In this document: positions 3,535 to 7,520 of the stretch, one piece after another
Position numbering within the stretch: the stretch's first letter is position 1
Layout: every line of letters starts with the position of its first letter
Notes under the pieces: generated by a model
What the model saw: the letters and a program-made list of their open reading frames with translations, nothing else
Database searches by the model: none
What the model was told of the DNA's origin: nothing
DNA from: Pseudobutyrivibrio sp.
Lineage (GTDB): Bacteria > Bacillota > Clostridia > Lachnospirales > Lachnospiraceae
Length of the DNA: 63,074 bases
Direction: 5' to 3'
Assembly: GCF_017471675.1 (NCBI RefSeq)
Contig: NZ_JAFUSK010000026.1
Location: 1 to 63,074, forward strand
Translations under genes and position numbers: made by a program

Positions 3535-3563
3535 AATATAGCAAACATATTTTCGATTGTCAA
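3535..3563 (-). promoter_or_regulatory. Sigma-A-type promoter for zinc-ribbon/lysin cassette
   Basis: On the minus strand, -35 TTGACA (3558-3563), 17-bp spacer and -10 TATATT (3535-3540). This is a perfect -35 with optimal spacing. It reads leftward, away from mfd, giving a leader of roughly 90 nt before the zinc-ribbon ribosome binding site. Confidence 0.75.
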
Positions 3564-3586
3564 CACTTTTTCGAAAGTTTGTTTGC
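3541..3586. promoter_or_regulatory. Inverted-repeat operator flanking the -35 box
   Basis: Arm GCAAACATATTTTCGA (3541-3556) fills the promoter spacer. The opposite arm (3571-3586) reads GCAAACAAACTTTCGA on the minus strand. Thirteen of 16 positions agree, with 14 bp between arms, and the -35 hexamer lies in that gap. A dimeric repressor bound here would block RNA polymerase. The regulator is not identifiable from this window. Confidence 0.65.
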
Positions 3587-3637
3587 TAATTATTTTATAT
3601 ATACTATTTTCTTATAAATCTATCATTTAACACTCCA

Positions 3638-3986
3638 TTACTATCTACAATCAGTTTTCATGCATAGATAGTAGTAGTTTTTACTTAGGCTACTACCTGT
3701 ATGCCATTTTATCTACCAGGTAGTAACTATTTTAACTTTAACTACTACCTATAAACTATTATCTTCCACAGGTAGTAATATCTCTAACTAAAACTACTAT
3801 CTACAGCCTATTTTCTCCTACAGATAGTAACATCATCCTAAACAGCTACTATCTATAGCAAAATTTCCACCACAGATAGTAGCATACTACCAAAAGACTA
3901 CTATCTGTAGCTAAATTCATGTCACAGGCAGTAATTTCTCCAAAGATGACTACTATCTATCACCAATTCTCACCTGCAGATAGTAA
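3638..3986. repeat. Seven-copy 52-bp tandem dyad array
   Basis: First arms of type CTACTATCTG begin at 3638, 3690, 3742, 3794, 3846, 3898 and 3950. The complementary second arms of type CAGATAGTAA begin at 3665, 3717, 3769, 3821, 3873, 3925 and 3977. Both series keep an exact 52-bp period, about five helical turns. Arms are about 10-13 bp; the loops and inter-unit segments are variable and A/C/T-rich. In units 2 and 3 both arms change together (ATCT/AGAT to ACCT/AGGT), which keeps the pairing. The period is not a multiple of three, so this is not protein-coding. The array ends 6 bp past the mfd stop codon and occupies most of the 551-bp gap between mfd and the zinc-ribbon gene. Function unknown. 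Confidence 0.9.
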
Positions 3987-3992
3987 CCGGTC

Positions 3993-6900
3993 TTATTCCT
4001 CCACCTTCAGGGTCTTCAAATCCAGCAAAAAGTCCTGGAGATACTCGAATACCTCTGATGGTTTGATGCGTGTGTTGGCTCTGGTATTAAATATAAAGGC
4101 CGGGTTTTTAGGGTCTGCCGCAAAGGTGATGTGTGGATTGTTGCGCTCTAGGAGAGCTGGAATCTGAGCCACATCTATCTTGGCCTTTTCGTACATGACG
4201 ATACGGATGATGTCGCCCTTTTGCTCGATGGCTGATACATAAGCATCATGGGCCTTCACGCGAAGCATTGCCACCCAAAGCAGATTTTGAACACATCGCT
4301 TTGGCTCGCCGAAGCGGTCCACAAGCTCGTCAAGCATATCGTCTCTGGCTTCCTCACTGTCGATAGCAGCAATACGCTTGTAGATATCGATACGCTGCTC
4401 TTCGTTGGAAACATAGGTATCTGGAAGATATGCTTCGATATTTATATCCACTGAGGTGTTGAAGTTTTCTTCCTTCACCTCGCCCTTTTCTATCTTTACG
4501 GCCTCGTTAAGCATCTTGCAGTATAGGTCGTAGCCTACTGCAGTCATGTTGCCGTGCTGCTCTACACCAAGCAGATTGCCGGCTCCACGTATCTCCAAAT
4601 CTCTCATGGCGATTTTAAAGCCAGAACCTAAATCTGTAAATTCCTTAATGGCAGCAAGACGCTTCTCTGCAACTTCCTTTAGCATCTTGTCTCTTCTATA
4701 CATTAAAAACGCATATGCGGTACGATTACTTCGGCCAACACGGCCTCTTAGCTGATACAACTGAGACAATCCCATATTGTCTGAATCGTGAATGATTATC
4801 GTATTTACGTTAGAAATATCAAGACCGATTTCAATGATGGTGGTAGCTACAAGCACATCAATCTCATGGTTGATAAACTGCATCATTACATCCTCAACCT
4901 TTGCCTCGGTCATCTGGCCGTGGATGTAGCCCACTGTTGCCTCTGGAACCAAGCGCTCTATTTCAGCAGCCATATCCTGAATGCCTCGCACCCTATTGAA
5001 TACGTAGTACACCTGGCCATCTCTTGCCATTTCACGCACGATAGCTTCGCGAACCATTTCCTCGTTGTACTCAAATACAAAGGTCTGTATAGGAGTACGC
5101 TCCATTGGTGCTTCATCCAGTACACTCATGTCACGGATTCCGACCAAAGACATATGAAGTGTACGAGGAATAGGTGTAGCAGAAAGTGACAGTACGTCTA
5201 CCGTCTTTTTCATCTGCTTGATCCTTTCCTTATGATTAACGCCAAATCGCTGCTCCTCATCTATAATAAGAAGCCCTAAATCTTTAAACTCTACGTCCTT
5301 TGAAAGCAGGCGGTGTGTACCGATGACGATATCTACCATGCCCTTTTTCAAATCCTCAATAGTCTTTTTCTGCTCCGCAGCAGTTCTAAATCTACATAGC
5401 AATCCCATGTTTACAGGATAGCCACCCATTCGCTGAACGAAGTTATTATAATGCTGCTGTGCAAGAATAGTTGTAGGTACCAGATATGCAACCTGCTTGC
5501 CCTCCTGAACAGCCTTAAATGCAGCACGCATAGCAACCTCTGTTTTGCCAAAGCCTACGTCACCACAGATAAGTCTATCCATGATTTTCTTTGATTCCAT
5601 ATCCTTCTTAACAGCCTCAATAGCTGTAAGCTGACCCTCTGTTTCCTCGTATGGAAAGCTTTCTTCAAATTCCTTCTGCCATACAGTATCAGGCCCATAC
5701 ACAAATCCATCTGTATTCTGACGCAAAGCATACAAATCCACCAGCTCCTTGGCAACAACACCAACAGCCGATTGAACCTTCTGCTTTGTTCTGGTCCATT
5801 CCTGGGTACCGGCACCTAAAGAATTCAGCTTTGGCTTCTTGCCATCAGGACCAGAATACTTCTGTATCATATCAAGCTGGGAAGTAAGCACGTACAGATT
5901 GCTTCCCTTAGCATACTCAATCTTTATATAATCGCGGATTACCTTGTCCACTTCCATCTGCTCGGTTCCCTTGTACACGCCCAAGCCATAGTTTTCATGA
6001 ACAACATAATCTCCAACGTGAAGATCCTGAAAGGAAGAAATAGATTCGCCCTCGTATTTCTTTACCCTGCGCTTCTTCTTACGAACATGTCCGAAGATAT
6101 CTCCATCAGATAGCATTACAAATGCCGAATCAGGATAATCAAATCCTCTTTTAATATTTCCAACACATAGCATTGTTTCCCCAGGATTGATTTTATGATC
6201 TAAATCTGTAGTGAAATATGCATTTAATCCTTCATCCAACAAATCCTGTGCCAGGCGCTGTCCTTTAGTAGATGAGCTGGTCACAAGTAGCACCTTGTAT
6301 TTACGCTTCTTATACTGGAGCAATTCCTTAGTCAATAGCTCAAACGAACCATTGTAGGCATTAACACCCTGCACTGCAATGCTGAAATGGTCTGCCGATT
6401 TAAGCAGCTTGTTTTTAGCATCCAAAACAGACATAAGTGTAGTAGGATATTTTTCGATTCTTCCAAATATCTCAGACACGCTGTAAAGCATTTCCATCTG
6501 GCCCTTTAGCATGTAGCCAGCCTCAACGCGACGTGTCATGGCATCAGCGAATTCAGTTTCTGTAACCTCGCCTTTGTTTATTACCTTCTGAACCTCGTCA
6601 ATAAACACGTAGGTTCCCTTTGGCATGAAATCTATAAATGAACCCAGCTTATCACAAAAGTAAGTAAGATTAGTCTCCAGCTCCTGGGATAATCCCCATT
6701 CTCTTGTCTCCTCCACAACTCTGTCGGCATAGGTTTTCAGATGATATGCCTCTTCTGTTTTCATTTCCTTACGATACTGTTCATAGCGCTCATCTCGTTC
6801 GGCTTCAATCTTCTGAAGACCAGCCTCCACCTCGTCAGCCCCCAGTATTAGCTCGACTGCAGGAAAAATTAAATCTGAATTTATATTTTCGATAGACTTC

Positions 6901-7520
6901 TGATTGCTGGCATCGTAGGTACGAATGCTATCAACCTCATCACCCCACAGCTCAATACGAACTGGCAAATCCGAAGTAAGTGGGAACACATCGATGATTC
7001 CACCTCTAACTGCAAACTCACCTGGATGTTCGCAGGTGCCTACATTCTCATAGCCCATGGCAACCAGCTTGCGGCGCAACGCCTCAAGCTCGATTGTATC
7101 CGTATCAGATATAGCTACCACACCATCCTCGAAATAAGAAAGTGCAGGCAGCTTATTCATCAACGCATCTATGGTGGTTATTACAGTACATGAATTATTG
7201 CTGATAACTGCCTCTATGGCGCTCATACGCTCCCGGGTAAGGGCGTTACCTCTGATATCCGACTGGTAAAACAGGAAATCCTTTGCAGGGAAAAATACCG
7301 TATTTTCATCGTAAAAACGATATTCCTCCACAAGCTCCCTTGCCTTTAATTCATCTGCTGTAATAATCAGCTTATAGTTTATATCATGTCCAATACCAAA
7401 AATAAGGTGCGCCTTATCGGCACACCCTGTAATATCATAGACTTTCCCGCGGCGAGCTAGAGCCTCACGAAGAGACTCTACCGCTGTTAGATTTTCAAAT
7501 GGTTCTAAAAATGTTTTCAT
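3993..7520 (-). CDS. mfd: Transcription-repair coupling factor Mfd
   Basis: An 1175-residue protein of full family length. Mfd is a double-stranded DNA translocase that removes RNA polymerase stalled at lesions and recruits UvrA. The N-terminal ~350 residues form the UvrB-like module. The CarD-like RNA-polymerase interaction domain lies at about 495-560 (HVGDYVVHENYGLGVYKG). The SF2 translocase shows Walker A GDVGFGKTE (about 655), the DEEQ box IDEEQRFG (about 755), and later motifs ATTIIEIGLDISN and QLRGRVGRS. The C-terminal TRCF domain is intact. It starts 3 bp after the SulP stop, with only a weak ribosome binding site, so it is probably translationally coupled as the last gene of the long leftward run. 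Its 3' side abuts the 52-bp dyad array. Confidence 0.97.
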   Translation of the reverse strand: MKTFLEPFENLTAVESLREALARRGKVYDITGCADKAHLIFGIGHDINYKLIITADELKARELVEEYRFYDENTVFFPAKDFLFYQSDIRGNALTRERMSAIEAVISNNSCTVITTIDALMNKLPALSYFEDGVVAISDTDTIELEALRRKLVAMGYENVGTCEHPGEFAVRGGIIDVFPLTSDLPVRIELWGDEVDSIRTYDASNQKSIENINSDLIFPAVELILGADEVEAGLQKIEAERDERYEQYRKEMKTEEAYHLKTYADRVVEETREWGLSQELETNLTYFCDKLGSFIDFMPKGTYVFIDEVQKVINKGEVTETEFADAMTRRVEAGYMLKGQMEMLYSVSEIFGRIEKYPTTLMSVLDAKNKLLKSADHFSIAVQGVNAYNGSFELLTKELLQYKKRKYKVLLVTSSSTKGQRLAQDLLDEGLNAYFTTDLDHKINPGETMLCVGNIKRGFDYPDSAFVMLSDGDIFGHVRKKKRRVKKYEGESISSFQDLHVGDYVVHENYGLGVYKGTEQMEVDKVIRDYIKIEYAKGSNLYVLTSQLDMIQKYSGPDGKKPKLNSLGAGTQEWTRTKQKVQSAVGVVAKELVDLYALRQNTDGFVYGPDTVWQKEFEESFPYEETEGQLTAIEAVKKDMESKKIMDRLICGDVGFGKTEVAMRAAFKAVQEGKQVAYLVPTTILAQQHYNNFVQRMGGYPVNMGLLCRFRTAAEQKKTIEDLKKGMVDIVIGTHRLLSKDVEFKDLGLLIIDEEQRFGVNHKERIKQMKKTVDVLSLSATPIPRTLHMSLVGIRDMSVLDEAPMERTPIQTFVFEYNEEMVREAIVREMARDGQVYYVFNRVRGIQDMAAEIERLVPEATVGYIHGQMTEAKVEDVMMQFINHEIDVLVATTIIEIGLDISNVNTIIIHDSDNMGLSQLYQLRGRVGRSNRTAYAFLMYRRDKMLKEVAEKRLAAIKEFTDLGSGFKIAMRDLEIRGAGNLLGVEQHGNMTAVGYDLYCKMLNEAVKIEKGEVKEENFNTSVDINIEAYLPDTYVSNEEQRIDIYKRIAAIDSEEARDDMLDELVDRFGEPKRCVQNLLWVAMLRVKAHDAYVSAIEQKGDIIRIVMYEKAKIDVAQIPALLERNNPHITFAADPKNPAFIFNTRANTRIKPSEVFEYLQDFLLDLKTLKVEE

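Follow-up and report, generated by a model that had tools for sequence, protein, structure and literature searches.

Dyad arrays in Pseudobutyrivibrio and their probable partnership with a family of nuclease-like genes

The stretch of DNA analysed here, which we call the window, is 63,074 nucleotides of contig NZ_JAFUSK010000026.1 from Pseudobutyrivibrio sp., and it carries an array of seven inverted-repeat units (dyads) next to mfd. This array is one of many scattered copies of its type and is not unique to the locus. Our preferred explanation, to which we give a probability of roughly 0.6, is that a nuclease-like protein encoded on contig C7 of the same genome has arrays of this type as its DNA partner, that the window array is a dispersed copy without a gene beside it, and that the pair behaves like repetitive extragenic palindromic (REP) sequences and their REP-associated tyrosine transposases (RAYTs), with an unrelated enzyme. 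Across the Lachnospiraceae, nuclease-like genes and their cognate dyad arrays look like an undescribed repeat-plus-enzyme system.

The dyads of the window array have the arms TACTAYCT and AGRTAGTA, spaced by 27 and then 25 bp, between positions 3639 and 3985. The initial annotation had described seven arm pairs in a strict 52-bp register separated by diverged sequence, and the arm coordinates bear this out: the period is exactly 52 bp, and pairwise comparison of the units gives mean identities of 94% and 89% for the two arms, compared to 50% and 39% for the two spacers. It had also reasoned that further copies in the genome and its relatives would strengthen the case, and such copies are plentiful. 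The source genome (G000, 3.1 Mb; C-numbers are its contigs and L-numbers are loci) holds 54 exact matches to TACTAYCT-N18..21-AGRTAGTA, against 0 for a reversed-pattern control. These fall in at least 11 arrays, on C1, C7 (two), C11, C19, C28, C29, C45, C49, C79 and C86; a DNA search with the window array gave nine matches besides the array itself in the same genome. Spacing is nearly constant: in 90 chains from the source and 11 related genomes, the second arm starts 27 (334 times) or 28 bp (85 times) after the first, and the next first arm follows 25 (326 times), 24 (25 times) or 26 bp (once) later, in a scan that permitted only 26–28 and 24–26 bp.

Window-type dyads were found in 14 of 29 genomes of the genus (in one of them only once), and the control pattern matched once. 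A sample of 397 genomes from the wider family contained matches in six, namely G000, G020 and four others with one lone dyad each; the control pattern matched in 14 genomes of this sample, and we therefore attribute the four lone dyads outside the genus to chance. Scanning the GTDB collection with a three-arm pattern returned 55 stretches, 54 of them in Pseudobutyrivibrio. A stretch in a Ruminococcus metagenome-assembled genome (L139) has three arms in register and one out, lies in coding-looking sequence and belongs to no longer array; it was likewise dismissed as chance.

Two window-type arrays flank a gene for a 263-amino-acid protein on C7 (39603–40391, minus strand). We had set down beforehand the expectation that paralogs of this gene would adjoin arrays with other arms, and a blind search for alternating 8-mers found such chains beside them, compared to 0 chains in 36 shuffled loci; shuffled upstream sequences scored 0. 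Arms beside paralogs include AGTGGTAA, AGTACTGC, CTACTGCA, CCACGTAG, GACACGAA, ATGCATCC and AGGCAGTA. With a single detector, an array was found within 700 bp of the gene at 41 of 69 gene loci, which include orthologs and hence are not independent, and at 0 of 78 control stretches, which were taken from 26 mfd loci and include coding sequence. The array is upstream of the gene at 37 of the 41 loci and downstream at 9, five of which (L020, L061, L172, L178 and L179) have arrays on both sides; the other 36 have one on one side. Four home loci (L020, L061, L070 and L072) had been fetched because of their arrays, and without these the count is 37 of 65, made up of 22 of 36 loci in the genus (picked by rank and genome) and 15 of 29 in other genera (those given identifiers by the wider-family search). 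No array was detected at 28 loci, five of which have less than 300 bp of upstream sequence. In two genomes the closest matches to the home gene, L173 (in G028) and L181 (in G025), adjoin arrays with drifted arms (TAGTAAAA and ACTACCAC seeds).

Dispersal is not limited to the window type. The pattern TTACCACT-N-AGTGGTAA occurs 18 times in the source genome on five contigs (C15, C31, C36, C45 and C73), with its gene on C15, and TGTGACAG-N-CTGTCACA, with a period of about 74 bp, occurs 23 times on seven (C19, C24, C26, C28, C52, C71 and C88), with genes on C24 and C52; the control gave 0 in both cases. Three array types are thus dispersed in this genome alongside their genes. The two source-genome paralogs L164 (C24) and L165 (C52) have the arm motif CTGTCACA in common.

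The family proteins combine an N-terminal helical and beta part with a C-terminal PD-(D/E)XK-like domain. The C-terminal half matches the PADLOC models PDC-S68 (in its C-terminal stretch) and HEAT_CxxC_PDDEXK; the PDC-S68 models are 1202–1273 residues long, compared to about 263 for the array protein. The fold match is the Bax1 endonuclease, with no closer relative among the matches listed. Both the conserved acidic motif and the fold of PD-(D/E)XK enzymes are present, and the putative catalytic residues are invariant in 29 paralogs; the protein is nuclease-like and is predicted to cleave DNA. No Pfam or NCBIfam model matches the array gene above cut-off, and a Pfam scan of ten family proteins found neither a Nop domain nor a transposase match.

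The family is multi-copy: 28 of 29 genus genomes have matches, and 12 of them have 8–11 (pieces of broken genes being counted separately). Homologs at E ≤ 1e-20 occur in 42 of 120 genera of the wider family, own genus included, although four of these have C-terminal pieces only. Many homologs are near contig ends, as would be expected if repeats break assemblies. The ratio of nonsynonymous to synonymous substitution rates (dN/dS) is 0.13–0.20 for the array gene across four pairs of orthologs (one pair, with dS 1.5, is close to saturation) and 0.07–0.29 for neighbouring genes; the array gene is under purifying selection. Two other origins were considered and rejected. Relatives of the gene occur in nine viral contigs, but the best segments span the C-terminal part only, which does not suit a phage gene, and a mobile unit formed together with a comEC-like gene is not indicated, since synteny there is kept in four genomes.

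The array periods provide a second line of evidence. Among 29 arm types, grouped by eye and with six resting on detector scores below 6, mean periods are 50.6–53.8, 62–64 and 72.7–75 bp, with one type at 86 bp. Periods near 52, 63, 74 and 86 bp correspond to five, six, seven and eight helical turns. At 10.5 bp the phase concentration R is 0.885 with a mean offset of 0.24 bp, and none of 100,000 uniform draws was as high; the 12 types away from 52 bp give p = 6e-5 by themselves. The fit is best at a scale of 10.85, on a flat peak, supporting whole turns of about 10.5–11 bp, and the absolute periods (5 × 10.5 and so on) suit B-DNA. Single gaps are not fixed: in long-period types the shorter gap is 25–34 bp and the other 33–58 bp. 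The shorter gap is the more A/T-rich at its centre in 10 of 12 long-period types, with one tie (L236) and one reversed (L229). In the window type, the three central dyad positions contain no G and are almost only A/T (61 units, source genome). These gap lengths and A/T-rich centres would fit a dimer footprint and a linker that completes whole turns.

These features suggest how the system may work. Many family proteins have their own array type beside the gene, and each of the three types searched for in the source genome is also found elsewhere in it. A protein dimer would bind each dyad, one subunit per arm with the A/T-rich centre between them, and the whole-turn spacing of dyads would align the dimers on one face of the helix, where they could bind side by side. 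More speculatively, the enzyme, directly or through recombination that it provokes, might let arrays grow, copy to new intergenic places and be lost.

If a protein acts on copies far from its gene, home and dispersed arms should resemble each other, and a comparison among genomes of the genus suggests recognition of dispersed arms in trans (G002 is DSM 9787, G004 AD2017, G005 CF1b, G006 SIG311, G007 SIG312, G020 YE44, G023 OR37, G024 RUG12053 and G027 P. xylanivorans DSM 14809). The variable arm base is mostly C in both home and dispersed arms of G005, G020 and G027, and mostly T in both in G000, G004 and G023 (home 82–89%, dispersed about 58–73%). In G022 the home and dispersed arrays alike carry TACTGCCT, with 17 exact dyads altogether, and TACTAYCT is absent, as would be expected if repeat and cognate gene go together between genomes. 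Other observations weigh against the preferred explanation. G002 and G003 fit this pattern in part only: their home arrays are all T, and their dispersed arms are 27 T and 22 C, and 11 T and 51 C, respectively. Dyads of the TACTGCCT type are also found in G003 (22), G002 (11), G011 (4) and G020 (3). Finally, seven arrays with periods near 52 bp (L161, L173, L182, L184, L185, L189 and L232) have no clear difference between their gaps.

Among the alternatives, the one that survives best, although we consider it unlikely, is that the arrays are host operators or architectural sites. In that case a regulatory or nucleoid protein would control its own gene through the array upstream of it, and the scattered arrays would serve as binding platforms for organising or silencing the chromosome. 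The predominantly upstream position of the arrays, the helical phasing and the purifying selection on the gene are all consistent with such a role, as is the orthologous array placement shared by some species. However, a pure binding protein would have no need of the invariant putative catalytic residues, and several paralogs per genome with different arms would be odd for one architectural role. Furthermore, at gene pairs that are themselves conserved, the arrays vary from species to species.

This turnover, together with near copies at unrelated loci, was followed at several places. Downstream of mfd, 26 of 28 mfd-bearing genomes have no array of the window type, with G000 and G002 having one (G010 has one lone arm, and only 224 bp of G012 were in view). 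A lipoprotein-like gene follows mfd in the five relatives read there; in G000 the neighbouring genes differ as well, and no clean empty site was obtained among the 28 genomes compared. By eye, an element with inverted parts splits the mfd array of G002 and is also found just before that array. In G024, which has no mfd match, a 96% identical array lies at the start of a contig, adjoining (by eye) sequence that encodes a piece like the inside of the window gene at 847–2979. At a hemZ-like gene pair, counting window-type arms only, G000 has an array and 0 of 27 other genomes do, among them G006, whose neighbour is 97% identical. The locus was seen completely in 25 of those 27, as the G024 sequence ends early and the G001 gene is fragmented. 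The entire intergenic stretch differs there, giving no exact insertion point. In AD2017, a 274-bp array-bearing stretch is 96% alike at two unrelated loci. It should also be noted that in P. ruminis CF1b and P. xylanivorans, arrays form part of a compound element, about 690 bp long, whose inverted ends resemble hairpins (L150:4399-5090; pieces in L129, L130, L132, L136, L144, L148, L155 and L156), longer pieces of which are about 88–97% alike at many places.

One array lineage is found in G000 at L022 and, inverted and 85% alike, at the unrelated L059. In G000 and RGIG9167 this array directly joins a gene A to a gene B. In SIG311 and OR37 other DNA, about 3.8 and 14 kb respectively, lies between the same two genes and is bordered on either side by arrays of this lineage that point the same way (all but 8 kb of the OR37 insert was read). 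The inserts, L114:7547 to L142:3929 in SIG311 and L149 to L107 in OR37, contain small genes of unknown kind and could be cassettes. That this one locus has a single array in two genomes, but inserts of roughly 4 and 14 kb between same-orientation arrays in two others, raises the idea that arrays are exchange sites of a nuclease-driven cassette system, in which the enzyme, lined up along an array, would make breaks that let array-flanked DNA insert, copy or leave. We regard this as distinctly unlikely.

The initial annotation had left two readings side by side, a DNA-binding protein lined up along one face of the helix or transcription of the mfd 3' end into seven stem-loops, and had taken a coordinated change in units 2 and 3 as a sign of selected pairing. 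The change is present as described, with TACTACCT/AGGTAGTA in both arms, and unit 6 is indeed less well paired, its second arm being altered to AGGCAGTA. The inference of selected pairing did not survive a covariation test. With one variable base per arm, in chains of at least four arms and with seven AD2017 loci removed beforehand as duplicates, the bases of a dyad's two arms agreed in 288 of 408 comparisons and those of adjacent dyads in 245 of 346, without a within-dyad excess. Both values are slightly above within-locus shuffles (p about 0.009 each), suggesting that arrays homogenise internally; in the source genome alone neither exceeds shuffles (p = 0.22 and 0.52). The absence of a within-dyad excess, together with the helical periods, favours a protein on one face of the DNA over RNA stem-loops, and the A/T-rich centres and the linked gene family point the same way.

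More doubtful still is the possibility that the arrays act as RNA, either as chains of stem-loops (mRNA 3' ends or terminators) or as spacer-derived guide RNAs that would serve the nuclease, as in TIGR-Tas (tandem interspaced guide RNA) systems. RNA folding of the window array is strong (z = −11.3), but any set of inverted repeats would fold. Of nine source-genome arrays of the window type with both neighbours in view, eight lie, by reading, between codirectional genes and one between convergent genes, and several begin shortly after a stop codon, as stem-loops at mRNA ends might. TIGR arrays likewise have alternating repeats of 8–12 nt that vary between loci and lie beside an effector gene (PMC12045711). 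Against an RNA role, in addition to the pairing test and the match of periods to B-DNA turns, stand spacers of 16–20 nt rather than 9, the lack of a Pfam match to the Nop domain in the ten proteins scanned and the lack of a terminator-like site at the window array. Ordinary local tandem duplication beside mfd, with no special meaning, draws on arrays with near-identical units (L021 and L024) but is refuted as a full account by dispersed arrays with conserved arms and diverged spacers, by arrays of like design, but with other arms, next to paralogs and by the quantised periods.

Within the window, the array stands out, as only 2 of 180 overlapping 700-bp tiles score at least 4 and both are on it; Tandem Repeats Finder detects it in part only. 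Features are listed in Table 1. The array had been said to fill the space between the mfd stop codon and the operator-controlled promoter. This holds at the mfd end, where 7 bp separate the stop codon from the last arm, but about 75 bp are left on the other side before the promoter-like minus-strand site that scores best, with 11 of 12 consensus bases; poorer matches are nearer. An 18-bp inverted repeat (89%; 3535–3588 in all) overlaps that strong site, upstream of a 55-amino-acid gene with CxxC pairs. Near the array, 847–2979 encodes a 710-amino-acid protein with peptidoglycan-binding and Rv2525c-like glycoside hydrolase domains; another gene occupies this position in the five relatives whose mfd region was read.

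Table 1. Array, dyads and adjacent features of the window.
Feature	Position	Strand	Basis
Seven-dyad array, period 52 bp	3638..3986		Arm positions, unit alignment
Dyad 1: TACTATCT ... AGATAGTA (arms start at 3639 and 3666)	3639..3673		Arm-pattern match
Dyad 2: TACTACCT ... AGGTAGTA (arms start at 3691 and 3718)	3691..3725		Arm-pattern match
Dyad 3: TACTACCT ... AGGTAGTA (arms start at 3743 and 3770)	3743..3777		Arm-pattern match
Dyad 4: TACTATCT ... AGATAGTA (arms start at 3795 and 3822)	3795..3829		Arm-pattern match
Dyad 5: TACTATCT ... AGATAGTA (arms start at 3847 and 3874)	3847..3881		Arm-pattern match
Dyad 6: TACTATCT ... AGGCAGTA, one base off arm consensus (arms start at 3899 and 3926)	3899..3933
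Dyad 7: TACTATCT ... AGATAGTA (arms start at 3951 and 3978)	3951..3985		Arm-pattern match
mfd (transcription-repair coupling factor)	3993..7520	-	ORF; Pfam TRCF, CarD_TRCF_RID, UvrB_inter
Promoter-like site upstream of next minus-strand gene, overlaps inverted repeat 3539-3556 / 3571-3588	3535..3563	-

Searches of open-licence PMC papers listed no description of this gene-array system, although coverage is partial and the absence correspondingly weak. A word search for five names of this bacterial group found none in a paper on tagged palindromic repeats (PMC3733652). If the preferred explanation is correct, this enzyme-plus-repeat system is carried by a large bacterial family and uses an enzyme unrelated to the REP-linked tyrosine transposases, and the coupling of enzymes to intergenic repeats would have evolved on more than one occasion. 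With its many protein and arm-motif pairs, the system offers a ready set for studying how sequence specificity evolves, and the rule of 5–8 turns makes a cooperative-binding model directly testable. Arrays near several contig ends and at species-variable insert sites may mark places of gene exchange in rumen bacteria.

Several known systems resemble this one in part. CRISPR arrays also consist of regular repeats and variable spacers with a nuclease-like gene alongside. Here, however, each unit has two short inverted arms and, in the window type, a spacer centre of almost only A/T; a scan of the window against Rfam found nothing at gathering scores, and the array gene lacks the Pfam and NCBIfam matches noted above. 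TIGR-Tas systems share the alternating short repeats that vary between loci, the variable spacers and the adjoining protein gene. TIGR arrays place 9-nt spacers (up to 12) between two distinct repeats and produce 36-nt RNAs (PMC12045711), whereas the arrays described here consist of inverted copies of one 8-bp arm with spacers of 19–20 and 16–18 nt, are dispersed without genes, are quantised by helical turns and adjoin proteins with no Nop match. The nearest analogy appears to be REP/RAYT. In that system, the RAYT gene is flanked by its cognate repeats, REP sequences or bacterial interspersed mosaic elements (BIMEs), which are inverted, alternating, regularly spaced and dispersed in the genome (PMC2817692). 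Our arrays are likewise inverted, alternating and regularly spaced; three types are dispersed in the source genome together with their genes, and the gene has an array on both sides at five loci and on one side at 36. There are also differences: arms of about 8–10 bp form the halves of long dyads with a strict periodicity of 5–8 turns, tens of exact dyads of a type are found per genome rather than more than 100 repeats, and the array protein, by PADLOC model and fold, is PD-(D/E)XK-like and not a tyrosine transposase of the IS200/IS605 type.
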